A stretch of 30,792 nucleotides of DNA from positions 1 to 30,792 of the IMG/VR virus record IMGVR_UViG_3300027782_000252; one strand, given 5' to 3'. Source of the DNA: a virus. Position 1 is the first letter of the stretch; every line of letters starts with the position of its first letter. Of the stretch, positions 2,003 to 30,149 are shown one piece after another. A program made the translations under genes and the position numbers. Under the pieces are notes generated by a model. The model had not been told where the DNA came from. It worked only from the letters and a program-made list of their open reading frames with translations, and did not search any database.

Positions 2003-2641
2003 ATGAATTTACAAAATTACTACTATTATTTTCAAAGCGCATTAACTCCTAGATTTTGTGATGAATTAATTAAATATGGAACTGCACAACAAGAACAATT
2101 AGCTCTTACAGGTGGTCAAACTGAAAAAATTAATAAAGGAAAACCACTAGATGATAAAGATATAGTAGATTTAAAAAAAAAACGAGATTCAAATATAGCT
2201 TGGTTAAATGATCGTTGGATATATAAAGAAATACAACCATTTATACATCAAGCGAATAGACTAGCTGGTTGGAATTTTGATTGGGATTTTTCAGAGTCAT
2301 GTCAATTTACTAAATATAAACTAAATCAATTTTACGATTGGCATTGCGATAGTTGGGAAACTCCATACGCAAATAAAGATAATAAAGATACTAATGGTAA
2401 AATTAGAAAATTATCAGTTACATGTTCATTATCAGATCCAAAAGATTATGAAGGTGGTGAATTAGAGTTTGATTTTAGAAATATGGATCCTGATAAAAAA
2501 TCAATTAGAAAATGTGCAGAAATAGCAGCAAGAGGATCTATTGTAGTATTTCCATCACATGTTTGGCATAGAGTTAAACCTGTAACAAAAGGAACTAGAT
2601 ATTCTTTAGTAATTTGGAACTTAGGATATCCATTTAGATAA
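2003..2641 (+). CDS. 2OG-Fe(II) dioxygenase, PKHD/prolyl-4-hydroxylase type
   Basis: This 212-aa protein has the full active-site pattern of 2-oxoglutarate/Fe(II) dioxygenases. An HxD iron pair lies at H114/D116 (WHCD), the distal His is at H189 (HVWHRV), and the 2OG-binding Arg is at R199 (TRYSLVIW), on the jelly-roll framework usual for the P4H/PKHD branch (EGGELEF, GSIVVFPSHVWH). Such enzymes hydroxylate proteins or small molecules using O2 and 2-oxoglutarate; the substrate here is unknown. It is the first of four adjacent oxygenase-like genes placed between the adhesin and the gp10-like gene. All key residues are present, so it is expected to be active. Confidence 0.85.
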   Translation: MNLQNYYYYFQSALTPRFCDELIKYGTAQQEQLALTGGQTEKINKGKPLDDKDIVDLKKKRDSNIAWLNDRWIYKEIQPFIHQANRLAGWNFDWDFSESCQFTKYKLNQFYDWHCDSWETPYANKDNKDTNGKIRKLSVTCSLSDPKDYEGGELEFDFRNMDPDKKSIRKCAEIAARGSIVVFPSHVWHRVKPVTKGTRYSLVIWNLGYPFR

Positions 2642-2642
2642 A

Positions 2643-3272
2643 ATGAATAATATAGAAAGAGGAATAACACCTTTATTTTCAACTCCTTTATATGTAAGTA
2701 ATTTAAATATTTCTAAAAAAGAAAAAGAATATGTATTAAATTTAGATTACAAAAGAGTAGAATTAAATAACGGATATATATCAAAAAATAATAAAATATT
2801 AAATAATAAAATATTAAATAATATCAATAATCAAATTAAAGAACATTTAAATTTTTATACAAATGAAGTTTATAAAATATCTAAAAATATACAATTTTAT
2901 ATAACTTATTCTTGGGCTATGAAACATATTAAAAATGACAAATCACATAAACATTTTCACGAAAATAGTTTAATATCAGGTGTTGTATATTTTAAAATAC
3001 CTGAAAATTCAGGAAATATAACTTTCTATAAAAAAGATTCTACTATTAATGAAATATCACCATTAATAAGATTAAACTATTTAGAATGGGGATTGTTTAA
3101 TTCATATAAATGGAATTTAAATTTAAAAGAAAATATGATTATTTTATTTCCATCTTCTTTAGAACATGATACAGAAAAAAATAACTCTAATGAAGAAAGA
3201 TATTGCATTTCATTTGATACTTTTATAAAAGGAAAGATAGAAATGAATAATAAACAATTAAAAATAAACTAA
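2643..3272 (+). CDS. Putative 2OG-Fe(II) oxygenase-like protein (HxHxN variant)
   Basis: A 209-aa protein whose core, HFHENSLISGVVYFKIP at about 104-120, matches the style of the TIGR02466-like branch of the 2OG oxygenase superfamily. H104 and H106 are candidate metal ligands, H175 (SSLEHD) is the distal His and R186 (ERYCISFD) the 2OG-binding Arg. The classical HxD aspartate is not obvious, so activity is less certain than for its upstream neighbour. The gene is exceptionally AT-rich, with many Asn, Ile and Lys, and contains a 15-bp tandem repeat. It starts one base after the previous stop and ends overlapping the next ATG, which indicates co-transcription. Confidence 0.6.
   Translation: MNNIERGITPLFSTPLYVSNLNISKKEKEYVLNLDYKRVELNNGYISKNNKILNNKILNNINNQIKEHLNFYTNEVYKISKNIQFYITYSWAMKHIKNDKSHKHFHENSLISGVVYFKIPENSGNITFYKKDSTINEISPLIRLNYLEWGLFNSYKWNLNLKENMIILFPSSLEHDTEKNNSNEERYCISFDTFIKGKIEMNNKQLKIN
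2787..2823 (+). repeat. 15-bp direct tandem repeat inside oxygenase-like gene
   Basis: Two perfect copies of AATAATAAAATATTA (2787-2801, 2802-2816) are followed by 7 bases of a third. The repeat stays in frame and encodes NNKIL-NNKIL-NN. It looks like replication slippage in an AT-rich linker and adds five residues per unit. Confidence 0.8.
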
Positions 3273-3970
3273 TGGCAAAAACGGATCAATTAAACTCAAG
3301 TATATATTTTAGTTCACCTGTATATTCTATAGAAATTCCAGAATGGGTAGAGGATACTAATAAAGTTTGTGATAAATATATTAAAGAAGCTAAAAAGAAT
3401 AATATTAAAGCTATTAAAGAACGTGAAAAGAAATTTGGTAAAAAAATAGGTGATCATGGAATGAGTTATCATTCTACAACATTAGTAGGTGATCCTGCTT
3501 TAAAAGAATTACAAGATTATATAGGTTCAACTTCATGGAATGTTTTAGATCATATGGGTTATGATTTAACTAATTATGAATTATTTTGGACGGAGTTTTG
3601 GGTACAAGAATTTGGAGAAAAAGGTGGTGGTCATCATGAGGGACATATTCATTACGATAATCATATATCTGGCTTTTACTTTTTAAAGTGCTCTGATAAA
3701 ACTTCAATGCCAGTATTTCACGATCCAAGACCTGCTAAACTTATTACACAGTTACCATTAAAGAATGAAACTGATATAACTTTAGGAACACATCAAATTC
3801 ACTATAAACCAAAACCTGGAACAATGATATTCTTCCCTGCTTACATGGAACATCAATATGTGGTTGATGATGGAGTAGAGCCATTTAGATTTATCCATTT
3901 TAATTTACAAGCTGTAAGAAGAATGATTACTGATACAGTAAGAACACAAACTAAAAAGGAGAAAAAATGA
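3272..3970 (+). CDS. Putative 2OG-Fe(II) oxygenase-like protein
   Basis: A 232-aa protein with a His-rich core, HHEGHIHYDNHISGFYF (about 121-137), then FHDPRPAK (149-156), GTMIFFPAYMEHQ with distal His H194, and a late R206 (PFRFIHFNLQ). This layout (H-x-H-x-D/N, SG.YF, FFPA..EH, R...FN) is that of the TIGR02466-like 2OG oxygenase branch, so it is a diverged relative of the gene before it. The N-terminal third has an amphipathic Lys/Glu-rich helix (about 30-58). Its ATG overlaps the previous stop by one base, and it ends in ATGA with the next gene. The substrate is unknown. Confidence 0.65.
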   Translation: MAKTDQLNSSIYFSSPVYSIEIPEWVEDTNKVCDKYIKEAKKNNIKAIKEREKKFGKKIGDHGMSYHSTTLVGDPALKELQDYIGSTSWNVLDHMGYDLTNYELFWTEFWVQEFGEKGGGHHEGHIHYDNHISGFYFLKCSDKTSMPVFHDPRPAKLITQLPLKNETDITLGTHQIHYKPKPGTMIFFPAYMEHQYVVDDGVEPFRFIHFNLQAVRRMITDTVRTQTKKEKK

Positions 3971-4623
3971 GTTTTAAAAAAGATAAGTATGTAATTATTA
4001 AAGAAGCAATATCAGAAGATTTAGCTAAATTTTGTTATGATTATTTTATGATGAAGAAACAAGTAGCTAGAACAATGTTTGATAATAAATATATAAGTCA
4101 ATTTACAGAATATTTTGGTGTATGGAACGATCAACAGGTTCCTGATACTTATTCACACTATTCTGACATTGTAATGGAAACATTACTTGTCAAATTACTT
4201 CCAGTAATGGAAAAAGAGACATCTCTTAAATTAAACCCAAATTATTCTTATGCTAGGATTTATAAAAAAGGAGATGTCTTACATAAACATAAAGATAGAT
4301 TTTCATGTGAGATTTCTACAACTATGCATTTAGGCGGAGGTTGTTGGCCTATATATTTAGAACCAGATGCTTCATTAGGAGGAGTTGATGAAAAGACTGG
4401 TAACTATAAAGCATCTAAATCTAAAGGTGTTAAAGTAATGTTACAACCTGGTGATATGTTAGTTTATAGAGGAAATGAATTAGAACATTGGAGAGATAAA
4501 TTATCTTTTGATGATTGTGGTCAAGTATTTTTACATTACAATAATGTTGAAACTAAAGGGTCTAAAGAAAATATATATGATCGTAGACCTCATTTAGGAC
4601 TTCCAGCTTGGTTTAAAAAATAG
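3967..4623 (+). CDS. 2OG-Fe(II) oxygenase-like protein
   Basis: A 218-aa protein. HKHKD at 106-110 supplies an HxD pair (H108/D110), preceded by YSYARIYKKGDVL, a common lead-in to the iron site in this superfamily. QPGDMLVYRGNELEHWRD (about 160-177) holds the distal His H174. The usual late 2OG-anchoring Arg is not clear: the strand reads QVFLHYNN. The fold assignment is good, activity less so. A strong AAGGAG site (3956-3961) precedes the ATG, which overlaps the previous stop as ATGA. It is the last of four oxygenase-like genes. They differ too much in sequence to be recent duplicates. Confidence 0.7.
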   Translation: MSFKKDKYVIIKEAISEDLAKFCYDYFMMKKQVARTMFDNKYISQFTEYFGVWNDQQVPDTYSHYSDIVMETLLVKLLPVMEKETSLKLNPNYSYARIYKKGDVLHKHKDRFSCEISTTMHLGGGCWPIYLEPDASLGGVDEKTGNYKASKSKGVKVMLQPGDMLVYRGNELEHWRDKLSFDDCGQVFLHYNNVETKGSKENIYDRRPHLGLPAWFKK

Positions 4624-16622: not shown

Positions 16623-17193
16623 ATGGATATTTGACGCCGTAGAAAAGCATAAGAAAAAGAAAACTTTACCAAAAGGAGGACTAGAAATAGTTACTGCTAT
16701 TGGTAATAAATTAATAGAAAAAAAGAAAGTTCTTGAAAAAGAGGAAGAAAGATTAAAAGTCTTAAAATCTGAAATTCGAGAAATAGAAGAAAAAGAATTA
16801 CCTGATGCTATGGCATCGTGTAATAATATGACTAGATTTGATCTTGCAGATGGAAGTCAAATTGTAGTTAAAGACGAACTATTTTGTTCTATACCAGATG
16901 ATAAAAGAGCAGGTGCTCTTAAATGGTTAGAAGAAAATGGTCATGCTGAACTAATTAAACATGATGTTAAAGTTAGTTTTGCAAAAGGAGAGTACGATGA
17001 GGCTGATAAACTTATAGGACTTCTTAATAAAAATTTTAAGAATATCCCGTATGAAGAAAAGTCGACCGTGCATCCTGGTACATTAAAAGCTTTTGCTAAA
17101 GAAAGATATTCTTTAGGTGAAACATTACCTGAACAATATTTTAGTGTGTACGAAGCCAGTATAGCAAAAGTAAAACTCGGAAAGGAGAAATAA
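16612..17193 (+). CDS. Coiled-coil early protein, unknown function
   Basis: A 193-aa protein from ATG 16612. An in-frame ATG at 16603 is only one base from the AAGGAG site, so the later start is preferred. It has a basic N-terminus (KHKKKKTLPKGG), a Lys/Glu coiled coil at about 37-62, then an alpha/beta domain (MTRFDLADGSQIVVKDELFC, KWLEENGHAELIKHDVKV, VHPGTLKAFAKERYSLG). Proteins with this plan are common next to phage SSB or recombination genes and are sometimes called Gam- or nuclease-inhibitor-like, but I cannot confirm that. Directly followed by the SSB-like gene with a three-base gap. Confidence 0.6.
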   Translation: MSDKWIFDAVEKHKKKKTLPKGGLEIVTAIGNKLIEKKKVLEKEEERLKVLKSEIREIEEKELPDAMASCNNMTRFDLADGSQIVVKDELFCSIPDDKRAGALKWLEENGHAELIKHDVKVSFAKGEYDEADKLIGLLNKNFKNIPYEEKSTVHPGTLKAFAKERYSLGETLPEQYFSVYEASIAKVKLGKEK

Positions 17194-17196
17194 TAA

Positions 17197-17997
17197 ATGG
17201 CTGAAGTAAAACAAGTAGTAAAGAAACCAGCAAGTAATGGATCTCTAGTAGGTAACATTAATGCTGATTTAATTCTGAAAAATGCCGGTAAAGGATTACA
17301 GAATGTCACTAACGATGATATTACAATTCCTAGACTAGCTATAGTTCAGTCAGGTTCACCTCAAAGAAAGAAAAAAGATGAAAAGTATATTGAGGGAGCT
17401 GAAGAAGGTATGATTTTTAATACTGTTACTAATACTGTATATGGTAACACTATTGAAGTTATTCCTTGTGGATATAGAAAAACCTATGTAGAGTGGGTAC
17501 CTAGAGAAGATGGTGGCGGATTAGTAGCAGTTCATGATATGAAACCTGCTAATACTAAAACTGATCCTAAAACTAGAAAATCTTTATTAGGTAAAAATCA
17601 AATAGTTGATACTGCAGAACACTTTGTGCTTCTTCAAAAAGAAGATGGTACACATGAACCTGCTGTATTAAATATGACTTCTAGTAATCTTTCAGTTTCA
17701 AGAAAGTGGAATACACTTCTTAAAATGAAAAAGATTAATGTTAAAGGTCAAACTATTGATCCACCTAGTTTTCTATATAAATTTAATCTTTCTACTGTTC
17801 AAGCTGAGAATGACTTGGGTAGTTGGTTTAAATATAAAATAGAAGAAATAGGTCAAATTGATAGTAAAGATGTATTTAGTCAAGCTGAAGGTCTAGCTGA
17901 ATCAGTGGACAAAGGCAAAGTTAAAGCATCTGAACCTGTAGAAGTTGATCAACCTGTAACTGATGATTCTGACGATAACGAAGAAGCACCTTTTTAA
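17197..17997 (+). CDS. Single-stranded-DNA-binding-protein-like, acidic tail ending in Phe
   Basis: This 266-aa protein has a central beta-rich region (ITIPRLAIVQSG, GNTIEVIPCGYRKTYVEW, EHFVLLQKEDG, SFLYKFNLSTV). Its C-terminus is strongly acidic and closes with DDSDDNEEAPF. An acidic tail with a terminal Phe is the known protein-docking device of bacterial SSB and T7 gp2.5. I infer ssDNA binding, protecting template and recruiting the primase, polymerase and exonuclease encoded next. An AAGGAG site nine bases before the ATG suggests strong translation, as expected for a stoichiometric protein. The core domain was not matched to a named family. Confidence 0.55.
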   Translation: MAEVKQVVKKPASNGSLVGNINADLILKNAGKGLQNVTNDDITIPRLAIVQSGSPQRKKKDEKYIEGAEEGMIFNTVTNTVYGNTIEVIPCGYRKTYVEWVPREDGGGLVAVHDMKPANTKTDPKTRKSLLGKNQIVDTAEHFVLLQKEDGTHEPAVLNMTSSNLSVSRKWNTLLKMKKINVKGQTIDPPSFLYKFNLSTVQAENDLGSWFKYKIEEIGQIDSKDVFSQAEGLAESVDKGKVKASEPVEVDQPVTDDSDDNEEAPF

Positions 17998-20469: not shown

Positions 20470-21970
20470 AACTTTAAAGATATTTGGAAGTCCTGGTACT
20501 GGTAAGACAACAGAACTATTAAAAATATTAGAAGAAAAAATAGCAGAAGGATATAAAGCAAATAGAATTGGATTTTTTTCTTTTACACGCAGAGCTATTA
20601 AAGAAGCAAGATCAAGAGTTATTAAAAAATTTAAATTATCAGAAGATGATTTAGAATATTTTAGAACTATACATAGTCTATGTTATAGAGCATTAAATAT
20701 TAATAGTGGTCAAGTATTTAAAGGAGAACGTATAAAAGAATTTAGTGAATTAGTAAGAGTAGAAATGACCGGAGTATCAGAGGAAGATAATTCAGGACTT
20801 ATTATTGGAAGTAAAAAAGGTGATTTATTATTATTCTGTGACGAGGTAGCTAGATCAAGTGAAAGAGATTTAAAATCAGTATGGAAAGAATTAGAGTGTG
20901 AACACTCTTGGGAAGAGCAAGACTATTTTAGTAAATCATATTCTAATTTTAAAAAAACTAAAAATCTTCTTGACTTTACAGATATGTTAGATGTATTTTT
21001 AGAACAAGAGTATGTACCTGATTTAGATATAGTATTTGTAGATGAAGCACAAGACTTAACTATTAAACAATGGAAAGTAATAGAAAAATTAACTAAGAAT
21101 TGTAAATTGAGATATATAGCAGGTGACGATGATCAAGCTATTTATAAATGGTCAGGCGCTGACGTAACTAATTTTTTAAATATAAAAGGTGAAGTTAAAG
21201 TTCTTCCTAAAAGTCATAGACTTCCTAAAGTAATTCATAAACTAGCTTGTAATATTACTAATAGAATTTCATTAAGACAATCTAAAGAATGGACTTCTAA
21301 AGATGAAGAAGGAAGTATAACTGAAATATCTTCTATAGAAGAAGTAGATATGACTTCAGGAGAATGGTTAGTATTAGCAAGATCAGGATATCAATTACAT
21401 AGAGCTGAATCTTATTGTAAACGTATGGGTTGGTTTTATGAAAGAGGATATCAAGAATTTAAAGCTAATAAATTTGTCGTAGCCATTAGATCATGGATCA
21501 AATTAAATAAAGGAGAAACTATTTCTTTTGAAGAACTTCAAAAACTATATTCTTGTTTAAGAAGTAACGTAGGAATTAAACGTGGATTTAAATCATTAAA
21601 AGATGTAGATACAAATTTAGAATTTAATTTAGAGTATTTAAAAGAAAATTGTGGATTACTTGCAAATGGAGATTGGAGAGAAATAATTCATGGACTTGAT
21701 CCTGAAGATATGTTAATGTTTGAATCTTTAGTTAAATCTGGAGATATATTTAAAAATAAAGCAAGGATTAGATTATCTACTATACACGCTATTAAAGGTG
21801 GTGAAAGTGATAATGTTATTGTAATTAGTGATATATCTTATAAAACTTGGAAAAGATTAAATGTAGAACCCGATGATGAACATAGAGTATTTTATGTTGC
21901 AGTAACTAGAGCTAAAAAGAATTTGTTCATTCTACAGCCTGAAACGAAGTATAGTTATACAATACATTAA
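20459..21970 (+). CDS. UvrD/Rep-like SF1 DNA helicase
   Basis: This 503-aa SF1A helicase has Walker A GSPGTGKTT (10-18), motif Ia FTRRAIKEA, Walker B VDEAQD (194-199), motif III GDDDQAIYKWSGAD, motif IV-like LPKSHRLP, motif V STIHAIKGGESDNV and motif VI YVAVTRAKKNLF. It is shorter than UvrD/Rep (about 670-720 aa), so the 1B/2B insertions are reduced. It would unwind DNA 3' to 5'. With no hexameric replicative helicase in the window, it may serve at the phage fork. Start and stop overlap both neighbours (TAATG at the 3' end), placing it in the replication operon. Confidence 0.92.
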   Translation: MDNKTLKIFGSPGTGKTTELLKILEEKIAEGYKANRIGFFSFTRRAIKEARSRVIKKFKLSEDDLEYFRTIHSLCYRALNINSGQVFKGERIKEFSELVRVEMTGVSEEDNSGLIIGSKKGDLLLFCDEVARSSERDLKSVWKELECEHSWEEQDYFSKSYSNFKKTKNLLDFTDMLDVFLEQEYVPDLDIVFVDEAQDLTIKQWKVIEKLTKNCKLRYIAGDDDQAIYKWSGADVTNFLNIKGEVKVLPKSHRLPKVIHKLACNITNRISLRQSKEWTSKDEEGSITEISSIEEVDMTSGEWLVLARSGYQLHRAESYCKRMGWFYERGYQEFKANKFVVAIRSWIKLNKGETISFEELQKLYSCLRSNVGIKRGFKSLKDVDTNLEFNLEYLKENCGLLANGDWREIIHGLDPEDMLMFESLVKSGDIFKNKARIRLSTIHAIKGGESDNVIVISDISYKTWKRLNVEPDDEHRVFYVAVTRAKKNLFILQPETKYSYTIH

Positions 21971-23028
21971 TGAAAGCATTAGGAGCATATATATTCGCAG
22001 GTGGATTTGCATTAGGAGTTGAAAAACATTTTGATATTTTAGCTCATTTTGAAATGAAACCTGGAGTTTATAAAAAAACGTTTCAAGCTAATTTTCCTAA
22101 TGTTGAATATTACGAAGGTGAAGAAAATTGGCCTAAAGAAAAATTTAAAAATAAAGTAGATTTTATTTATTGTAACCCGCCGTGTGCTCCGTGGTCTAAT
22201 TTAGGATCCACTCAAAAAGGAGCAATGGCTTGGAGAGATGACCCTAGAATAGCATGCTGGAGAAATGCTTTTAATTTATTAAAAGATTTAAAACCTAAAG
22301 CTATTGTACTTGAATCAGTTCCTAGAGTTTATAGTAAGAATGGCGGATATGAAATGATTCAACAATTAACTAAAGAAGCAAATGAACTTGGATATTATAC
22401 TACTCATTTATTAATTGACGGTGGCTATACTGGATTAAATCATAGTCGTAAAAGATTTTTTTTTATAGCAACTAAGTATCATTTAAGTGTTAGACCTTTA
22501 AATTTTTCTCCGTTACCAACTACAGGAGATGTTCTTAAAAATTTTAAATTAGAACATAAAAAAGATATAGGACATTTAATGAAGTTAGGAAAAAACGAAA
22601 TTCCTTATTTAAAACATTGTAAACAAGGAGAAAGTTTAAGAGTAACTTGGGAAAGATATAATCCTCCAGAAACTTGGAAACGTGGAGGAATGAGAGGAGG
22701 AGTAAAAGGTAGACCTCAGTTTATGAAATGGAGATTAAAGAGTGACGAACATATACCAGTTATAGCTGGAGGTTTTTATATACATCCAACTGAAGATAGA
22801 TTATTCGGACATAAAGAATTAGCTTATATGACTGGTTATCCTCATGATTATATTTGGGAAGGACCAGTTTCTACTATAGGTTCACAAATTGCGAGAAGTG
22901 TTATGCCACCTGTAGCTGAATATGTAGCAAGGATAATTAAAAATAGTATAGAAAGTAAAAAAGAAAATAAAGAAATACATCAAGTGGTTGATTTTAGAAA
23001 ACCACCTGAGCAAGAAAGATTGATATGA
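21970..23028 (+). CDS. DNA (cytosine-5-)-methyltransferase family protein
   Basis: This 352-aa protein has C5-MTase motifs in order. A compressed motif I (IFAGGFALGVE, 8-18, one residue shorter than the usual FxGxGG), motif IV CNPPCAPWS with catalytic Cys C72, motif VI ESV (115-117, usually ENV), motif VIII NHSRKRFFFIA (157-167), the late RLFGHKELAYMTGYP block and motif X QIARSVMPPVAEY. A target-recognition region lies at about 215-265 (WKRGGMRGGVKGRPQFM). It should methylate carbon 5 of cytosine in a set sequence using SAM, protecting phage DNA or marking host DNA. It heads a nucleotide-modification cluster in which cytosine may already be C5-substituted. Confidence 0.85.
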   Translation: MKALGAYIFAGGFALGVEKHFDILAHFEMKPGVYKKTFQANFPNVEYYEGEENWPKEKFKNKVDFIYCNPPCAPWSNLGSTQKGAMAWRDDPRIACWRNAFNLLKDLKPKAIVLESVPRVYSKNGGYEMIQQLTKEANELGYYTTHLLIDGGYTGLNHSRKRFFFIATKYHLSVRPLNFSPLPTTGDVLKNFKLEHKKDIGHLMKLGKNEIPYLKHCKQGESLRVTWERYNPPETWKRGGMRGGVKGRPQFMKWRLKSDEHIPVIAGGFYIHPTEDRLFGHKELAYMTGYPHDYIWEGPVSTIGSQIARSVMPPVAEYVARIIKNSIESKKENKEIHQVVDFRKPPEQERLI

Positions 23029-23444
23029 CAGATATATTAAAAGACATAGATAATTTCCATAAAAAATATGGCTTTGAAAAGAATGAAAAGATTGATATAC
23101 CTAGTAATAGTGAACTTATTAATTTTAGAACTGCTTTTTTAATGGAAGAACTTGCTGAATATACTAATGCTATAACTAAAAAAGATGCAGCTGGAGCTTT
23201 AGATGCTTTAGTTGACATAGTTTATATAGCTTTAGGAACGGCTTGGTTATTTAATTTACCATTTGAAAAAGCATGGAACGAAGTTCAAAAAGCTAATATG
23301 AGTAAGATTAGAGCTAAAGATAAAACAGGAAAACGTGGAACTAAATTTGACGTTGTAAAACCTAAAGATTGGAAAGCTCCTAATATAGAAAAAATTATAG
23401 AAGAAGAAAGAGAAATAAATGAAAATTTTAGTAACAGGATTTAA
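23025..23444 (+). CDS. MazG-like all-alpha NTP pyrophosphohydrolase (candidate dCTPase)
   Basis: A 139-aa helical protein with the metal-binding motifs of the all-alpha NTP-PPase fold: EELAEY (41-46, E42/E45) and ALDALVDIVYIALGTA (about 58-73, D60/D64), the form common in phage MazG-like proteins. It would hydrolyse a nucleoside triphosphate to monophosphate and pyrophosphate. Its specificity cannot be read from sequence. Just upstream of glycosyltransferase-like, kinase and dCMP-acting enzymes, a dCTPase/dUTPase role like T4 gp56 is attractive, since it would remove dCTP and supply dCMP. ATGA overlap at the start; 26-base overlap with the next gene. Confidence 0.75.
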   Translation: MTDILKDIDNFHKKYGFEKNEKIDIPSNSELINFRTAFLMEELAEYTNAITKKDAAGALDALVDIVYIALGTAWLFNLPFEKAWNEVQKANMSKIRAKDKTGKRGTKFDVVKPKDWKAPNIEKIIEEEREINENFSNRI

Positions 23445-24444
23445 CGCATTATCAATTGGAACTGCTCGCAGTCCATTAAATATTGCAACTTCTGCTAGAA
23501 TACTCCCTACTGTTTTAAAAGAATTAGGACACGAAGTAATTCATAAAGCGATCATCCCGGGAGAAGATGTATCAATGTATGATAAGGTATTTGTATTCGT
23601 ATTTGGTCCTAATAGTTTATCAGCAAGATATTGGTATGGAGCTGCATACACTATAATTAAAAGACCTGATGCTATTGTATCTATAGATGATTGGCAAACT
23701 AAAGATTCAGTAAGTGGATTTGGAACTTTTAGTAGAGGACATTGGAGAATATGGAAGAAAGTAAGTCAAGCTGGAAATCCTGTTGGTAAAGTTTATTGGG
23801 ACGAAGCACAACCTTATAAAAAAGAAATAGAAGATTTAGTTGATACATTTGCTTTTGAAAAATGGCCGCATACTTTATTAGTACCAGCTTACGATGGTGG
23901 TAATTATGATGAATTAGGAATAAAAGCGAATAAAATTATTAATTGGGATCCTACACCTTATACTGATACTTATTTAAATCATACTGATAATGATAATTTA
24001 TTTTCAAAAGAAAATAAAGAAAGAGAAAAAGCATGGATACTTGCAAGTTTAGTAAGTAAAGATAGTTGGTTTAATAAGCAAGTATTTAATTGGAATGTTA
24101 AAAGATTTGGAAATGTAAAAGAAAAACAAGTACGTTTAAAAGAACACGAATTATTTGAAGAATATAAAAAAGTATGGGGAATGATTAGTCCTCCACATTA
24201 TCATACTATGAAAGGAAGTGGTTGGTGGAGAGTTAGATATAAAATAGCAAACGATGCTGGTAATATTATATATGCACATCCAGAAGAAGCTAAAGTTTTA
24301 GGATTAAATATTGATTTAAAAATTATAGAAAACGGTAGTAATGAAGAATTAAAAGAATTAATAAGTAGTCAAGCTTATATATTAAAGAAAAAGTTTTGGA
24401 CTAAAGAAAGGACTAAAGAATTTTTTAAATGCTTGCTAGGATAA
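23419..24444 (+). CDS. GT-B-like protein, candidate DNA glycosyltransferase
   Basis: A 341-aa protein. The N-terminal half looks like a Rossmann domain: MKILVTGFNALSIG, a helix ending KELGHEV, a strand YDKVFVFVFGP (54-64), and DAIVSIDDW. The C-terminal half looks like the second GT-B domain: AWILASLVSKDSWF (205-218), WNVKRFGN (225-232), a sugar-nucleotide-type segment RVRYKIANDAGNIIYAHPEE (271-290), then a closing helix (SNEELKELISSQAYILKKKF). This order recalls T4 DNA beta-glucosyltransferase, from memory and not by alignment. Placement directly before dNMP kinase and the dCMP-hydroxymethylase-like gene supports transfer of a sugar onto modified cytosine. A GT acting on a non-DNA target is the alternative. 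Confidence 0.55.
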   Translation: MKILVTGFNALSIGTARSPLNIATSARILPTVLKELGHEVIHKAIIPGEDVSMYDKVFVFVFGPNSLSARYWYGAAYTIIKRPDAIVSIDDWQTKDSVSGFGTFSRGHWRIWKKVSQAGNPVGKVYWDEAQPYKKEIEDLVDTFAFEKWPHTLLVPAYDGGNYDELGIKANKIINWDPTPYTDTYLNHTDNDNLFSKENKEREKAWILASLVSKDSWFNKQVFNWNVKRFGNVKEKQVRLKEHELFEEYKKVWGMISPPHYHTMKGSGWWRVRYKIANDAGNIIYAHPEEAKVLGLNIDLKIIENGSNEELKELISSQAYILKKKFWTKERTKEFFKCLLG

Positions 24445-25004
24445 TAATATTAGAAGGACCTGATGGAGTTGGTAAAACTACATTAGCTAAAAAATTTAAA
24501 GAGTTATATCCTAACTCTTATTATATTCATTTAAGAGTACATAATAATATGGAGTTATGGCATACAGCAGCTGCAAGACTTGCTGTTAAAATGAAAGAAA
24601 AAGGAAAATTAGTTATATTAGATAGACATTGGCCATCTGAACAATGTTATTCTTATATTTATAGAGAAGGTCCTTCTTATGATGCTTATAGTATATGGAG
24701 ATATTTAAATCGTGAAGGAGCTATATACGTTTGGTGTATACCTGATGATACTAAAAAAGTAAAAGATAATCATAATAGAAATAAAAAAATTAGACATGAA
24801 GAATATGATGATATTGATAAAGTTATTGATATGTATTTAAATTGTTGGGAAGATAAACATCCTAAACAAAATAGTTTTTTATCTTTATTATGTCCTTTAA
24901 AAGACCGTAAAGATTTTGTTCGTTATGATATGTTTAAAGAAGGTCATGATTTAAATAGAGTTGTAGAAAAAATAGAAGAAACGGCTTTTGTAAATAGTAT
25001 ATGA
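24429..25004 (+). CDS. Deoxynucleoside monophosphate kinase (thymidylate-kinase-like)
   Basis: This 191-aa P-loop kinase has Walker A GPDGVGKTT (10-18) and the TMPK-type DRHWPSE (65-71; DRxxxS). A lid region with basic residues lies at about 108-125 (KKVKDNHNRNKKIRHEEYDD). It phosphorylates a dNMP to the dNDP with ATP. In thymidylate kinases the substrate is dTMP; in T4 the unrelated-looking gp1 acts on hydroxymethyl-dCMP and others. Its four-base overlap with the TS-family gene downstream argues that it handles that enzyme's product. Length is close to the TMPK norm of about 205 aa. Confidence 0.8.
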   Translation: MLARIIILEGPDGVGKTTLAKKFKELYPNSYYIHLRVHNNMELWHTAAARLAVKMKEKGKLVILDRHWPSEQCYSYIYREGPSYDAYSIWRYLNREGAIYVWCIPDDTKKVKDNHNRNKKIRHEEYDDIDKVIDMYLNCWEDKHPKQNSFLSLLCPLKDRKDFVRYDMFKEGHDLNRVVEKIEETAFVNSI

Positions 25005-25834
25005 ATCAAATAGATCAAGATTATAAAAATTTTATAGTTGAAATAATAAGAGAATTTGATTATGAGTGTGCACCTCGTCAATTAAAAATTTATGAAAAAT
25101 TAAATCATTCTTTTCAAATTGATATGAATTTGCCAATCATAAGTATTAGAGAAAGAAATTTAAATTATAGTTTTATGTTTGGCGAAGCAGCATGGATATT
25201 AGATGGTAGAAATGATCTTTTAACTATTTCAAAGTATATGAAAAATATAAAAAGATTTAGTGATGATGGTGTAACTTTCTTCGGAGCTTATGGTCCTAAA
25301 ATTATAACTCAAATAAGTTATATTATAGATACACTTAAAAAAGATAAAGATTCAAGACAAGCGGTACTTACTATATGGAGAGAGAATCCTAGATCAAGTA
25401 AAGATATTCCATGTACTGTAGCTATGCAATTCTTTTTAAGACCTAGAGGTGATGAATTATATTTACATTGTATAACTACAATGAGAAGTAACGATGTATG
25501 GTTAGGTCTTCCTTACGATAGTTTTAATTTTAGTGCAATCAGTTTCGTAATCGCTTGTCATTTAAATAATTTAGGAATTCAATGTAAGTTAGGAAAATTA
25601 TATATAAACGCAGGTAGTCGTCATCTATACGATACAAATTTAAAAGATGCTAATATCGTAAGAGCAGGAATTCAAAACTATGAGTGTGATTTTTCTTTTA
25701 ATGATTTACTTGAAAAGTATAAATTAAATCCTATGAGAATAGTAGAAACTTTATATCAAGCTGCTGATATAAAAATAGGAAAAGAAGATGGACTTACTCT
25801 TTCTGATAAGTTACAAATAATTAAAAATGGATAA
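25001..25834 (+). CDS. Thymidylate-synthase-family enzyme, predicted dCMP hydroxymethylase
   Basis: This 277-aa protein has the TS fold landmarks: E62 in GEAAWILDG, DSRQAVLTIW (117-126), catalytic Cys C138 in IPCTVAMQFF (classical TS has PPCH), RSNDVWLGLPYD (162-173), and H207/Y209 in GSRHLYD. The residue after the aromatic in GLPY is D173, where thymidylate synthases carry Asn (L. casei N229). Asp here is the established mark of enzymes acting on dCMP, as in T4 dCMP hydroxymethylase (D179). The loop that reads IW in classical TS is FF here (93-94), and the C-terminus ends KNG, without the TS closing hydrophobic residue. It likely makes 5-hydroxymethyl-dCMP; 5-methyl-dCMP is the alternative. 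Confidence 0.7.
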   Translation: MNQIDQDYKNFIVEIIREFDYECAPRQLKIYEKLNHSFQIDMNLPIISIRERNLNYSFMFGEAAWILDGRNDLLTISKYMKNIKRFSDDGVTFFGAYGPKIITQISYIIDTLKKDKDSRQAVLTIWRENPRSSKDIPCTVAMQFFLRPRGDELYLHCITTMRSNDVWLGLPYDSFNFSAISFVIACHLNNLGIQCKLGKLYINAGSRHLYDTNLKDANIVRAGIQNYECDFSFNDLLEKYKLNPMRIVETLYQAADIKIGKEDGLTLSDKLQIIKNG

Positions 25835-26309
25835 TTATAGAATTCCAAAAGATTGGTATTTTCTGAAAATGGCAAATCTAGTTTCAGAAAGAGGAACTTG
25901 TGCTAGAAGAAAAGTAGGTTGTGTTTTAATTAATGAAAGAGGACATGTTTTAGCTACTGGTTATAATGGAGGACCTGCTCATACTGAACATTGTATAGAT
26001 ACTCCATGTCCTGGTGCTCATTTAAAATCAGGTGAAGGTTTAGATATTTGTAAAGCTATTCACGCTGAACAGAACGCATTACTTCAATGTAGAAACGTAT
26101 ATGAAATAAAATATGTGTATACTACTCTTAGTCCTTGTATTCATTGTGTTAAACTTCTATTAAATACTTCAGCAGAAGGAATAATAACTTTTGAAAAATA
26201 TGTTGACTTTGATACAGTTGGAAAGTTTTGGATGGATAATGGCGGTCAATCTTGGGCTTACATTAATAAAGAAATTATATTAGGAAAATGTTCAAGTTCT
26301 CTGAATTAG
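25827..26309 (+). CDS. dCMP deaminase (zinc-dependent)
   Basis: A 160-aa protein with the deaminase zinc site HAE (H79/E81) and SPCIHC (C104/C107), the substrate loop TGYNGGP (44-50), and the extra Cys/His cluster HCIDTPCPGAH (55-65) characteristic of the ComEB/dCMP deaminase branch, which holds a second zinc. It converts dCMP to dUMP, feeding thymidylate synthesis. Beside a dCMP-acting TS homologue it competes for, or balances, the dCMP pool, as T4 deaminase and hydroxymethylase do. It overlaps both neighbours: 8 bases upstream and 22 bases into PolA. Confidence 0.9.
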   Translation: MDNYRIPKDWYFLKMANLVSERGTCARRKVGCVLINERGHVLATGYNGGPAHTEHCIDTPCPGAHLKSGEGLDICKAIHAEQNALLQCRNVYEIKYVYTTLSPCIHCVKLLLNTSAEGIITFEKYVDFDTVGKFWMDNGGQSWAYINKEIILGKCSSSLN

Positions 26310-28129
26310 AAAAATCAAATATTATAGCTATTGACACTGAAACACATGATCCTAATCTTAAATCTTTAGGACCAGGTGGTTTTAGAAAAGATGGTAAATT
26401 AGTTGGTATATCTATAGCCACAGATAGTGGTTATAATGAATATTTTCCAATTGCACACGAAGGTGGAGGAAATCTTAATAACGATCAAGTAGTTGATTTT
26501 ATTGACAAATTACTTAAATTAAAGAAAAAGCTCGTATTTGCTAATGCTTTATATGACATGGAGTGGCTAAATTCACACGATTCAAGATTGACCTTTACGA
26601 AGCACCATTCTATATATGATATACAAGCTATAGAGCACCTATTAGACGAAAACAAGCTTAAATACTCTCTTGAATCTTTAAGTCAATACTATTTAAAAAA
26701 ATCTAAATATGAAGCTGAATTAGAACAAGCTATACAATTTAACTTTGGTAAAAAAGCTAAAGTTAAAGAAAATTTATGGAAGTTACATGCAAATAGTGTA
26801 AGAGAATATGCTAAAGAAGATGCTTTACTTACACTTCAAATATTTCAAAAACAATTACCTAGAATAAAGACTGAAGACGTAGAGGATATAGTTAATTTTG
26901 AAATGAGATTAATACCTTGTCTTTTTGAAATAAGAAAACGTGGAGTAAGAATTGATCTTAAAAAAGCAGAGAAACTTTATTATGATTTAGAAAAAAAACA
27001 ACACTTACTTCAAGATCAGCTAAATAAAGTAGGAGGACATGATGTAAATATTTGGGCAAATGCATCATTAAAACAAGCATATGATAAGAATGAAATTAAA
27101 TATAATTTTACAGAAAAAGGAACTGCATCTTTCACTCAAGATTGGCTTGAGCAGCAAAATGATGGAATATCTAAAACTATTTTAGATATTAGAAAATTGG
27201 ATAAAATTAGAAATACTTTTATAAAGAATATGATTTTAGAGAAAGCTGTAGGAGGTCGTATTCATTGTCAATTTAATTCTATGGGAACTGTAACAGGTAG
27301 ATTTAGTTCTAGTAATCCTAATCTACAACAAGTACCTGCTAGAGACCCTGAGCTTGGGCCGTTGATCAGAAGTTTATTTATTCCAGAAGAAAATCAAGAC
27401 TGGTATTGCGCTGACTATTCTCAACAAGAACCTAGAGTATTAGTTCATTACGCTGTTATTAAAAATATGGAATCTGCTAAAAAAGTTCAAGAAGAATTTT
27501 TAACTAATGATCAAACTGACTTTCACGATATGGTTGCAAAAATGGCTAGTATCGAAAGAAAACAAGCTAAGACTATTAACTTAGGATTATTTTATGGAAT
27601 GGGTAATAAAAAATTAGCTAGGGAGTTAGGATTAGATGATGATTCAGCTTATGAATTATTTAACAAGTATCATACTAAAGTTCCTTTTGTTAAAGAATTA
27701 TCTAAACAAGTATCTCATGTTGCAAGTACAAGAGGTTATATTAAAACTTTATTAGGAAGAAAAAGAAGATTTGATAAATGGGAACCTAAAGATAGTTATG
27801 GTAATACAGCTTATTCAAAAGCAGAAGCTATGGAAAGATATCCTGATAGTGAATTAAAGAGAGCTTATACTCATACAGCTTTAAATGCTTTAATACAAGG
27901 TTCATCTGCTGATATTACTAAAGCAGCAATGCTTAAAATATATGAATCAGGTATTACAGATGAAATAGATATTAAATTAACTATACACGATGAACTTGAT
28001 TTCTCAGTTGATAAATCTAAACAAAAATGTTTTGAAGAAGCTATACAAATAATGAAAAACTGTGTAGATATTAAAGTGCCTCTAAAAATTGATGTAGAGA
28101 AAGGAGATAGTTGGGGCACTGCTAAATAA
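26288..28129 (+). CDS. polA: Family A DNA polymerase with 3'-5' proofreading domain
   Basis: A 613-aa polymerase without the 5'-3' nuclease domain. The exonuclease domain has Exo I DTET (16-19), Exo II ANALYDMEW and Exo III YAKEDALL, so proofreading should be active. The polymerase domain has TVTGRFSSSNPNLQQVP, motif A DYSQQEPR starting at D376 (usually DYSQIELR), motif B RKQAKTINLGLFYG and motif C HDE (567-569). L432 corresponds to E. coli Phe762. It replicates the phage genome and must accept modified dCTP if the upstream cluster works as proposed. The TAATG-type junction with the next gene keeps it in the same operon. Confidence 0.95.
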   Translation: MFKFSELEKSNIIAIDTETHDPNLKSLGPGGFRKDGKLVGISIATDSGYNEYFPIAHEGGGNLNNDQVVDFIDKLLKLKKKLVFANALYDMEWLNSHDSRLTFTKHHSIYDIQAIEHLLDENKLKYSLESLSQYYLKKSKYEAELEQAIQFNFGKKAKVKENLWKLHANSVREYAKEDALLTLQIFQKQLPRIKTEDVEDIVNFEMRLIPCLFEIRKRGVRIDLKKAEKLYYDLEKKQHLLQDQLNKVGGHDVNIWANASLKQAYDKNEIKYNFTEKGTASFTQDWLEQQNDGISKTILDIRKLDKIRNTFIKNMILEKAVGGRIHCQFNSMGTVTGRFSSSNPNLQQVPARDPELGPLIRSLFIPEENQDWYCADYSQQEPRVLVHYAVIKNMESAKKVQEEFLTNDQTDFHDMVAKMASIERKQAKTINLGLFYGMGNKKLARELGLDDDSAYELFNKYHTKVPFVKELSKQVSHVASTRGYIKTLLGRKRRFDKWEPKDSYGNTAYSKAEAMERYPDSELKRAYTHTALNALIQGSSADITKAAMLKIYESGITDEIDIKLTIHDELDFSVDKSKQKCFEEAIQIMKNCVDIKVPLKIDVEKGDSWGTAK

Positions 28130-29400
28130 TGAATATTGGATTTTTAGGATTAGGAAAATTAGGACTTCCAGTAGCTCTTGCTATAGAAGATAAAGGACAT
28201 AACGTTTGCGGAACGGATATTAGTCCAATTACATTAAAAGGAATAAGAACAAAAACCCTCCATTATAAAGAAGAAGGTGCTCAAGAACTATTAAATAAAT
28301 CGAATATTCAAATAAAAAACATTAGCGATATAGTCAAAGATTGTGATATAATTTTTGTCCCTATTCAAACTCCACATGAAGAAAAATACGAAGGTATTAC
28401 AAGAATACCTAAAGAAAGAGCTGATTTTAATTACGAACATTTAAGAAATGGATTAAGAAATTTAGCTATAGAAGCTATGTTTCATAAAAAAGAAATTGTT
28501 GTAATTATAATATCGACTGTTCTCCCGGGAACTATTCGTAGAGAGATAATGCCTGTATTAAATAATTATATTAAACTTTGTTATAATCCTTTCTTTATAG
28601 CAATGGGTACTACTATTCAAGATTTTTTAAATAGTGAAATTATATTATTTGGAGTTGAAAATGAAGAAGCAGCAAAAAAAGCTGAAGAATTTTATAAAAC
28701 AATTAATGATAAACCTTTTTTTAAAACCACATTAGAAAATGCTGAATTAATAAAAGTAGTTTATAATACTTTTATTTCAACTAAAATTTCTATGATTAAT
28801 ACAGTTATGGAAACATGTCATTATCTTCCTAACACTAATGTAGATGAAGTATCTAAAGCTCTTTCACTTTGTACAAATAGAATTGTAAGTAATAAATATT
28901 TACAAGGAGGAATGGGAGACGGAGGTGGTTGTCACCCTAGAGATAATATAGCTCTATCGTATCTTGCAAATAAATTAGATTTATCATTTAATTGGTATGA
29001 TATGATTATGAAACAACGTGAACATCAAACTGAATGGTTAGCAAAATTAATTATACAAAATAGAAATGGATTAGAAATAAATATTTTAGGTAAATCTTTT
29101 AAACCTGAAACTACTTTAACTTTAGGAAGTCCTTCATTACTTCTTAAAACTATTTTAGAAGAATATGGTATTACAATAAAAATTTGGGATCCATACGTTG
29201 ATGGCAATATAGAAAAAACAGCAAAAGAATATGGGTGGAATGATCGAGCACAATTATTTTTTATAGGAACTAAACATGAAGCTTTTCATCATTTTTATTT
29301 TCATAAAGATTCAGTAATCATTGATCCATTTAGGTACTTAAATCTTAAAGATGATGTTAAATATATACCAATAGGAATATGCAACCAAAAGATAGAATAG
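28129..29400 (+). CDS. UDP-glucose/UDP-ManNAc dehydrogenase-like protein with altered active site
   Basis: This 423-aa protein has the three-part nucleotide-sugar dehydrogenase layout: NAD Rossmann GFLGLGKLGLPVALAI (4-19), STVLPGT (129-135), K209/N213 in ELIKVVYN, catalytic Cys C268 with D272 in GGGCHPRDN, and the C-terminal GKSFKPETT segment. Cys, Lys, Asn, Asp and Thr of the active site are kept. The motif that reads NPEFxxEG in UDP-glucose dehydrogenases is NPFFIAMG here (153-160). Both glutamates (human E161, E165) are therefore replaced, by F155 and M159. The family oxidises UDP-sugar C6 twice with 2 NAD+; here the hydrolytic step may be lost or altered. It could supply the donor for the upstream glycosyltransferase-like protein. 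Confidence 0.82.
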   Translation: MNIGFLGLGKLGLPVALAIEDKGHNVCGTDISPITLKGIRTKTLHYKEEGAQELLNKSNIQIKNISDIVKDCDIIFVPIQTPHEEKYEGITRIPKERADFNYEHLRNGLRNLAIEAMFHKKEIVVIIISTVLPGTIRREIMPVLNNYIKLCYNPFFIAMGTTIQDFLNSEIILFGVENEEAAKKAEEFYKTINDKPFFKTTLENAELIKVVYNTFISTKISMINTVMETCHYLPNTNVDEVSKALSLCTNRIVSNKYLQGGMGDGGGCHPRDNIALSYLANKLDLSFNWYDMIMKQREHQTEWLAKLIIQNRNGLEINILGKSFKPETTLTLGSPSLLLKTILEEYGITIKIWDPYVDGNIEKTAKEYGWNDRAQLFFIGTKHEAFHHFYFHKDSVIIDPFRYLNLKDDVKYIPIGICNQKIE

Positions 29401-30149
29401 AACATATAAAAAATTGGATTTTTAATTATGTAACTGAAATGCCTAATCCAGCTAATTGTTTAGTTGTAGGTATATCAGGCGGAATTGATTCATCTGTAGT
29501 AAGTACCATATCAGCAATGACTGGACTTAAAACTTTACTTGTTTGTATGCCAATACATCAAAGACCTGAACAACATGATTTATCTATAGCACATAAAAAT
29601 TGGCTTACTAATAAATTTAAAAATGCTTATGGAGTTGAAGTTGATTTAACTTATACTTTTAATTCTTTTGAAAATACTTTAATTGATAGAAAATTTACAT
29701 CTCAACTAGGATTAGCTAATTCAAGAGCTAGATTAAGAATGATGTGTTTATATCAAATAGCTTCTTCTTGTAACGGAATAGTAGTTGGAACTGGAAATAA
29801 AATAGAAGATTTTGGTGTAGGATTCTTTACTAAATATGGAGACGGAGGAGTAGATGTATCTCCAATTGGCGATTGTTTAAAAACAGATGTATGGAAAATG
29901 GGTAAAGAGTTAGGAATATTAGAGGATATTATTATGGCAGATCCAACTGATGGGTTATGGTCAGATGGCAGAACAGACGTTGATCAACTAGGAATGAGCT
30001 ATAAAGAATTAGAAATAGCTATGCAAGATCCTTCTGATAAGAATTATACTAAATATTTAGAACTTAGAATTAAGAATTTACATAAGATGAAGTCAATCCC
30101 TGTATGTAAATTTGATGGAAAAACTACTCTGGAAACAGATAAGAAATAA
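29379..30149 (+). CDS. nadE: NAD synthetase, ammonia-dependent type
   Basis: A 256-aa protein with the N-type ATP pyrophosphatase P-loop SGGIDSS (33-39), the central NSRARLRMMCLYQIA helix, GTGNKIEDF, FTKYGDGGVDVSPIGD and KTDVWKMGKELG, all in NadE order. It amidates nicotinic acid adenine dinucleotide to NAD+ with ATP and ammonia; no glutaminase domain is present. Length matches the bacterial short NadE. It overlaps the dehydrogenase gene by 22 bases, suggesting coupled expression to supply NAD+. Countering host NAD-depleting defences is another reason a phage would carry it. Confidence 0.92.
   Translation: MQPKDRIEHIKNWIFNYVTEMPNPANCLVVGISGGIDSSVVSTISAMTGLKTLLVCMPIHQRPEQHDLSIAHKNWLTNKFKNAYGVEVDLTYTFNSFENTLIDRKFTSQLGLANSRARLRMMCLYQIASSCNGIVVGTGNKIEDFGVGFFTKYGDGGVDVSPIGDCLKTDVWKMGKELGILEDIIMADPTDGLWSDGRTDVDQLGMSYKELEIAMQDPSDKNYTKYLELRIKNLHKMKSIPVCKFDGKTTLETDKK

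Follow-up and report, generated by a model that had tools for sequence, protein, structure and literature searches.

The 30,792-bp virus record IMGVR_UViG_3300027782_000252 of IMG/VR (a linear sequence with a GC content of 30%, analysed over its full length and referred to here as the window) carries an operon that probably directs the production of DNA containing glycosylated 5-hydroxymethylcytosine (hmC). Enzyme families, active-site residues, protein fold, gene order and genomic co-occurrence were observed, whereas the reactions, substrates and products are deduced from them. Cytosine hydroxymethylation together with sugar attachment is a known phage counter to bacterial defences. In the proposed pathway, dCTP and dCMP would be drained by a MazG-like enzyme and a dCMP deaminase, while a thymidylate synthase (TS) homologue would convert dCMP and methylenetetrahydrofolate to 5-hydroxymethyl-dCMP (hmdCMP). 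A phage kinase and the host nucleoside diphosphate kinase would raise hmdCMP to hmdCTP, the DNA polymerase PolA would incorporate the latter, and a glycosyltransferase (GT) resembling T4 beta-glucosyltransferase (BGT) would move a sugar onto the hydroxymethyl group in DNA. A UDP-sugar dehydrogenase (UGD), with NadE giving NAD or an amide, would most likely supply a donor of the uronic-acid type.

Central to this pathway is the TS homologue, which was aligned with T4 gp42, SPO1 gp29, E. coli ThyA and phage relatives. The catalytic Cys (KDIPC) and the equivalent of Glu60 (GEAAW) are present, and three residues before the Cys (position C-3) there is an Asp (D-I-P-C) where E. coli ThyA has Leu. 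In T4 gp42, the Asp at C-3 (Asp145) is needed for hydroxymethylation and activates the substrate water; the D145N mutant is dead, and TS has Leu at this position (PMC6400193). A preliminary description of the window had credited the TS homologue with the Asp typical of dCMP enzymes. Indeed, in the motif LGLPYD an Asp occupies the position of E. coli Asn177 and T4 Asp179, and this change was kept in all scorable relatives. An Asp at the Asn177 position sets cytosine specificity and marks contigs with modified cytosine in MetaGPA (PMC8670742). Furthermore, the C-terminal tail of TS is absent. The top sequence match in the PDB was the CMP 5-hydroxymethylase MilA (5b6d; 8e-18), with which the protein has the D-x-x-C motif and the Asp in common; at the positions of MilA K133 and A176, however, it carries a dCMP-type Arg (DSRQ) and Ser (MRSND). 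Based on these active-site residues, the TS homologue is predicted to be a dCMP hydroxymethylase.

The GT had no sequence match in Pfam, NCBIfam or the PDB and hit only phrog_14998, a family of unknown function. An AlphaFold2 model built on 35 aligned viral homologues (pLDDT 89.8, pTM 0.87) was searched with Foldseek. T4 BGT filled the top three places among the PDB fold matches (1bgt, E 3.9e-6; 1nzd; 1qkj), with T4 alpha-glucosyltransferase further down the list. The preliminary description had called the protein GT-B-like and suggested a structure prediction, and the model confirmed a GT-B fold with T4 BGT as its best match; for the same reason, the accompanying idea that this phage uses enzymes different from those of T4 is doubtful for the GT. 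Residue D91 is invariant, E290 is almost invariant, and a GSGWWRxR motif lies at 266-273. By eye, and without superposition, D91 sits at the topological place of the catalytic Asp100 of T4 BGT. The GT is predicted to glycosylate hmC in DNA.

The genomic company of the GT family points in the same direction. In IMG/VR, 476 relatives were confirmed by tblastn, and we surveyed the context of 79 loci, grouped into 29 clusters at 80% identity, by counting neighbours within 10 kb. A TS homologue was found near the GT in 21 of the 29 clusters and a TET enzyme in three, the other five being short-flanked. Every GT-adjoining TS with a readable motif, whether MilA-like or gp42-like, has the Asp177 change, and all of them except that of locus L103 have DxxC. 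Since the GT family is found with two independent routes to hmC, the dCMP hydroxymethylase-type TS and TET, it is tied to this base. It also goes with genes for tailoring nucleoside diphosphate (NDP) sugars, because the UDP-galactopyranose mutase gene (UGM; PF03275) lies within 300 bp of the GT gene in each of the 25 IMG/VR loci with UGM. Together, these findings assign a likely function to the unannotated phrog_14998, while its links to dCMP hydroxymethylase, TET, UGM and UGD suggest hmC sugars beyond glucose and arabinose. The GTs that adjoin UGM are candidate DNA galactofuranosyltransferases. In phage C48C1 (L041, 6586-10033), a Tet_JBP dioxygenase, the GT and UGM stand side by side, an arrangement that predicts galactofuranosyl-hmC made via the TET route. 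In phage DSL-LC01 the order kinase-TS-deaminase-PolA recurs, and the GT and mutase lie ~5 kb beyond PolA.

UGM-GT pairs were also seen in L034, L035, L030 and many IMG/VR loci (L075-L106), some of them beside gp42-like hydroxymethylases. A GT homologue with 32% identity is present twice on NVXB01000001.1 (L142, L143), a contig of a Hyphomicrobiales metagenome-assembled genome (MAG). For the lineage of the window itself, a galactofuranose donor is unsupported, UGM (PF03275) being absent from 13 records of this lineage.

The operon comprises the following genes:

21970..23028, + strand: C5-cytosine DNA methyltransferase (C5-MTase) homologue (PF00145, 4.8e-32)
23025..23444, + strand: MazG/PRA-PH-like all-alpha NTP pyrophosphatase (PF01503, 3.3e-12; phrog_671, 4e-29; PDB DR2231, 5.1e-5)
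23419..24444, + strand: BGT-like GT-B glycosyltransferase (no Pfam match; phrog_14998, 8.5e-24, unknown function; AlphaFold2 fold)
24429..25004, + strand: P-loop nucleotide kinase, thymidylate-kinase-like (PF02223, 1e-6, P-loop end only; phrog_761, 9.6e-18)
25001..25834, + strand: TS homologue of the predicted dCMP hydroxymethylase type (PF00303, 1.3e-18; best PDB match MilA, 8e-18)
25827..26309, + strand: dCMP deaminase (PF00383, 3.1e-19; PDB 2hvv, 2.1e-18; HAE and PCxxC zinc motifs)
26288..28129, + strand: family A DNA polymerase PolA with a 3'-5' exonuclease domain (PF00476, 3.5e-74; PF01612, 2.3e-11)
28129..29400, + strand: nucleotide-sugar dehydrogenase of the UDP-glucose type, UGD (TIGR03026; PDB UGDH 4a7p, 8.9e-30)
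29379..30149, + strand: NH3-dependent NAD synthetase NadE (TIGR00552; PDB 3fiu, 3.1e-32)

The five adjacent, overlapping + strand genes at 23025-26309 that had been described earlier, with PolA behind them, are present as open reading frames (ORFs), and the successive overlaps from the MazG-like gene to PolA amount to 26, 16, 4, 8 and 22 bp. While this core stood, the limits of the operon had to be widened: it starts with the C5-MTase homologue, which overlaps the MazG-like gene by 4 bp, and continues downstream of PolA with UGD and NadE, after which a VRR-like ORF follows. The same block occurs in 26 IMG/VR loci found via the GT (54-99% identity), wherever the contig reaches far enough. Compared with three relatives, the ratio of nonsynonymous to synonymous substitution rates (dN/dS) was 0.04-0.22 for each of the nine genes, which are under purifying selection. 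Because the gene order recurs in relatives and these ratios are low, the operon is not a chance grouping. The GC content of the gene cluster is 28%, as against 30% across the window. From family and position only, the MazG-like pyrophosphatase is a candidate dCTPase and the P-loop kinase a candidate hmdCMP kinase; a PDB search with the latter returned no informative relative. ORFs resembling class I S-adenosylmethionine (SAM) methyltransferases are inserted at differing sites of the operon in relatives, between NadE and VRR in L009 (~16700-17400) and directly before the C5-MTase homologue in L059 (7908-8576).

Both candidate sugar-supply genes passed the cut-offs of their families. UGD scored 204.6 bits against a TIGR03026 cut-off of 189.8 and has its catalytic Cys in GGGC, and NadE scored 161.9 bits against a TIGR00552 cut-off of 63.65 and has an SGGIDS PP-loop. 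The Manatee Spring podovirus MW202510 offers an informative comparison, as its genes for a methyltransferase, NTP pyrophosphatase, kinase, hydroxymethylase, dCMP deaminase, PolA and VRR are ordered as in the window, but it lacks the GT, UGD and NadE, and its methyltransferase is not of the C5 type. The absence of UGD and NadE from this GT-less phage with the same backbone suggests a uronic-acid-type sugar rather than glucose. The glucose proposed in the preliminary description is therefore unsupported, since the NDP-sugar dehydrogenase and NadE joined the operon together with the GT. Tentatively, and as the most parsimonious reading, UGD would give UDP-uronic acid to the sole GT of the operon, with NadE supplying NAD or amidating the sugar. 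Some relatives carry an epimerase (PF01370) after NadE and VRR, and in the deeper branch L058-L062 the GT is accompanied by a nucleotide-sugar epimerase-like gene elsewhere. UGD and NadE are also neighbours in HTVC008M and several cyanophages, inside glycan clusters, where the pair may be a uronamide module. In L037-L040 (HTVC008M, Bellamy, P-TIM68 and S-SSM7), the two genes are adjacent or nearly so.

Compared with known systems, the operon resembles the T4 set (gp56, gp42, gp1 and beta-glucosyltransferase) in having a pyrophosphatase, a hydroxymethylase-type enzyme with Cys/Asp/Asp, a kinase, a dCMP deaminase and a GT-B glycosyltransferase of the DNA type. The T4-style hypermodification proposed earlier is thereby supported, by inference, as regards the hydroxymethylase-type enzyme, pool cleaning, kinase and DNA-type GT, but not as regards glucose or complete replacement of cytosine. 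In contrast to T4, the GT has no detectable sequence relation to BGT, the TS homologue is nearer to MilA than to gp42, UGD and NadE are encoded where T4 relies on host UDP-glucose only, a C5-MTase homologue is added, and the virus is a podovirus with PolA. Phages RB69 and Thanatos, with pentosylated cytosine (PMC6024577, PMC12838424), likewise combine an hmC-type enzyme, a GT and dedicated NDP-sugar genes, and a GT homologue in Rgz1 adjoins genes for arabinose-5-phosphate isomerase and an NDP-sugar pyrophosphorylase. Such sugar genes are absent from the window, which has UGD and NadE instead. The system is of a known kind; what is new about it lies in its GT family, in how the sugar would be supplied and in the methyltransferase that partners the GT.

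Several observations weigh against the production of glycosylated hmC. The Ser/Thr-x-Tyr of a proposed hydroxymethylase signature reads Gly-Ala-Tyr in the TS homologue, with only the Tyr kept; the TS homologue was therefore placed in a broad pyrimidine hydroxymethylase class and not with the gp42 type. SPO1 gp29, annotated as a dUMP hydroxymethylase, is likewise without this signature. The link between the GT and BGT is one of fold only (TM ~0.55), and a comparison of the GT profile with T4 BGT by hhalign was not significant (probability 5.1%), so that the GT was likened to BGT in its working but not filed as a member of that family. UGD is missing from the L058-L062 branch and NadE from some relatives, and both genes are found as well in glycan clusters of cyanophages that have no connection with DNA. 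The virus is uncultured and known here from its sequence. Finally, a C5-MTase homologue in the operon would make no sense if every cytosine were hmC, as it would then have no cytosine to modify. With such a gene also encoded, the complete replacement of cytosine envisaged in the preliminary description is unsupported. C5-methyltransferases are, however, able to attack hmC (PMC11347137).

We therefore inspected what the C5-MTase homologue might do. It keeps the PPC catalytic Cys, the Glu and the RxR. Its C5-MTase fold and dcm-like sequence family are consistent with an ordinary, diverged methyltransferase that serves self-marking or methylation of host DNA and merely shares the operon. Orphan methyltransferases are frequent in phages, and we consider this explanation a serious contender, if slightly on the doubtful side. 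It fits poorly with motif VI, which reads ESV instead of ENV, with motif X, where Asn (HhaI Asn304) is replaced by Arg309, and with the fusions to the GT found in two distant phages: the C5-MTase domain and the phrog_14998 GT form a single ORF in L068 (8357-11011; 884 codons) and L071 (2-2428; 808 codons). On the GT tree, pairs of C5-MTase and GT turn up in three distinct branches. No cluster contains both the C5-MTase and the mutase (6 versus 16 of 29 clusters; P ~0.004 if independent), an exclusion that is merely indicative because the clusters are related. A motif I two residues short was considered and ruled out, as the ungapped HMMER alignment has one Gly to Phe change, with the aromatic residue kept.

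Conceivably, the C5-MTase homologue uses carboxy-SAM, or another route that does not use SAM, on cytosine or hmC in DNA, besides the formation of hmC, with the GT, NadE or both acting on the product; hmC replacement would then be partial, or hmC itself the substrate. In a profile alignment, Arg309 falls exactly on R350 of CmoX (8YF3), which contacts the carboxylate of carboxy-SAM (PMC12783734). Arg occupies this motif X position in the window and in the L059, L068 and L071 groups, while the distant L091/L096 homologue has Lys, like the N374K change that made M.MpeI a carboxymethyltransferase (quoted in PMC12783734). The GT fusions and pairings fit such a role, as do the NH3-dependent, adenylate-forming nature of NadE and the ability of C5-MTases to attack hmC. 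The CmoX/CmoA/CmoY 5-carboxymethylcytosine system (PMC12783734) accordingly resembles the window in its C5-MTase fold, the Arg at the carboxy-SAM position and an AMP-forming ligase in the operon. In contrast, the window has NPPC rather than the SPPC that the CmoX survey requires, its ligase is of the NadE and not the asparagine synthetase type, and C5-MTases of the window type sit beside the GT or are fused to it. CmoA (TIGR00740) was absent from 13 records, comprising the window and relatives that are partly fragments, while the E. coli control matched. Moreover, CmoX (8yf3) ranked only 15th among the fold matches and is not the nearest sequence. On balance, a CmoX-like role appears rather unlikely. 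Quite unlikely, too, is a new hypermodified cytosine in which hmC bears a uronic acid or uronamide (from the phage UGD and NadE, attached by the BGT-fold GT) and the CmoX-like C5-MTase homologue takes part in the pathway, modifying cytosine or hmC through a reaction that does not use SAM.

With regard to the TS homologue, it is improbable that the enzyme is a dCMP methyltransferase making 5-methyl-dCMP, as in XP12, while the GT serves a target other than DNA, for instance a glycan of the virion or of the cell surface. TS mutants N177D/N229D do methylate dCMP (cited in PMC8670742), and the presence of UGD and NadE in cyanophage glycan clusters would suit a non-DNA target. However, the Asp at C-3 is the residue for hydroxymethylation, DNA GTs came first among the matches of the GT model, and GT homologues are also paired with TET. 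Although dCMP deaminase, kinase and TS commonly serve dTMP supply, plain nucleotide scavenging is extremely unlikely and was rejected on the residues of the TS homologue (Asp for Asn at 177, DxxC, no TS tail); the adjacent DNA-type GT also speaks against it.

Glycosylated hmC remains the preferred product. Because the record is 30.8 kb and linear and the longest relatives reach 52-56 kb, the window is a genome fragment, and the small phage of the first description is unsupported; judged from its genes, it comes from an HTVC023P-like podovirus of about 52-56 kb. Identity with HTVC027P, HTVC023P, Roseobacter phages CRP-901/902 and DSL-LC04 is 32-48% for the stabilisation protein, the portal and PolA, the portal query having been taken from a 56 kb relative (G006). 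Megablast against cultured phages gave no match, and a scan of genome contigs for hints of the host yielded only four distant MAG matches. The related HTVC023P-type pelagiphages (PolA 40-44%, portal ~45% identity) had already been reported to have DNA hypermodification genes, namely TS plus aG/PT-PPlase (PMC9599517). Their modification route is of the thymine type, whereas that of the window, judged by the Asp residue, would be of the cytosine type. T4-type cytosine hypermodification is thereby indicated in relatives of abundant marine phages, and some library and nanopore methods may recover too little of the native DNA of such phages.

Two minor observations concern the tail-side regions. 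At 2003-4623 of the window, four consecutive ORFs that by eye resemble 2OG-Fe(II) dioxygenases stand beside tail-type genes. In the 56.3 kb relative G006, a carbamoyltransferase (L043:15627-17072; PF16861, 8.6e-39) lies in the tail-side module near small dioxygenase-like ORFs.

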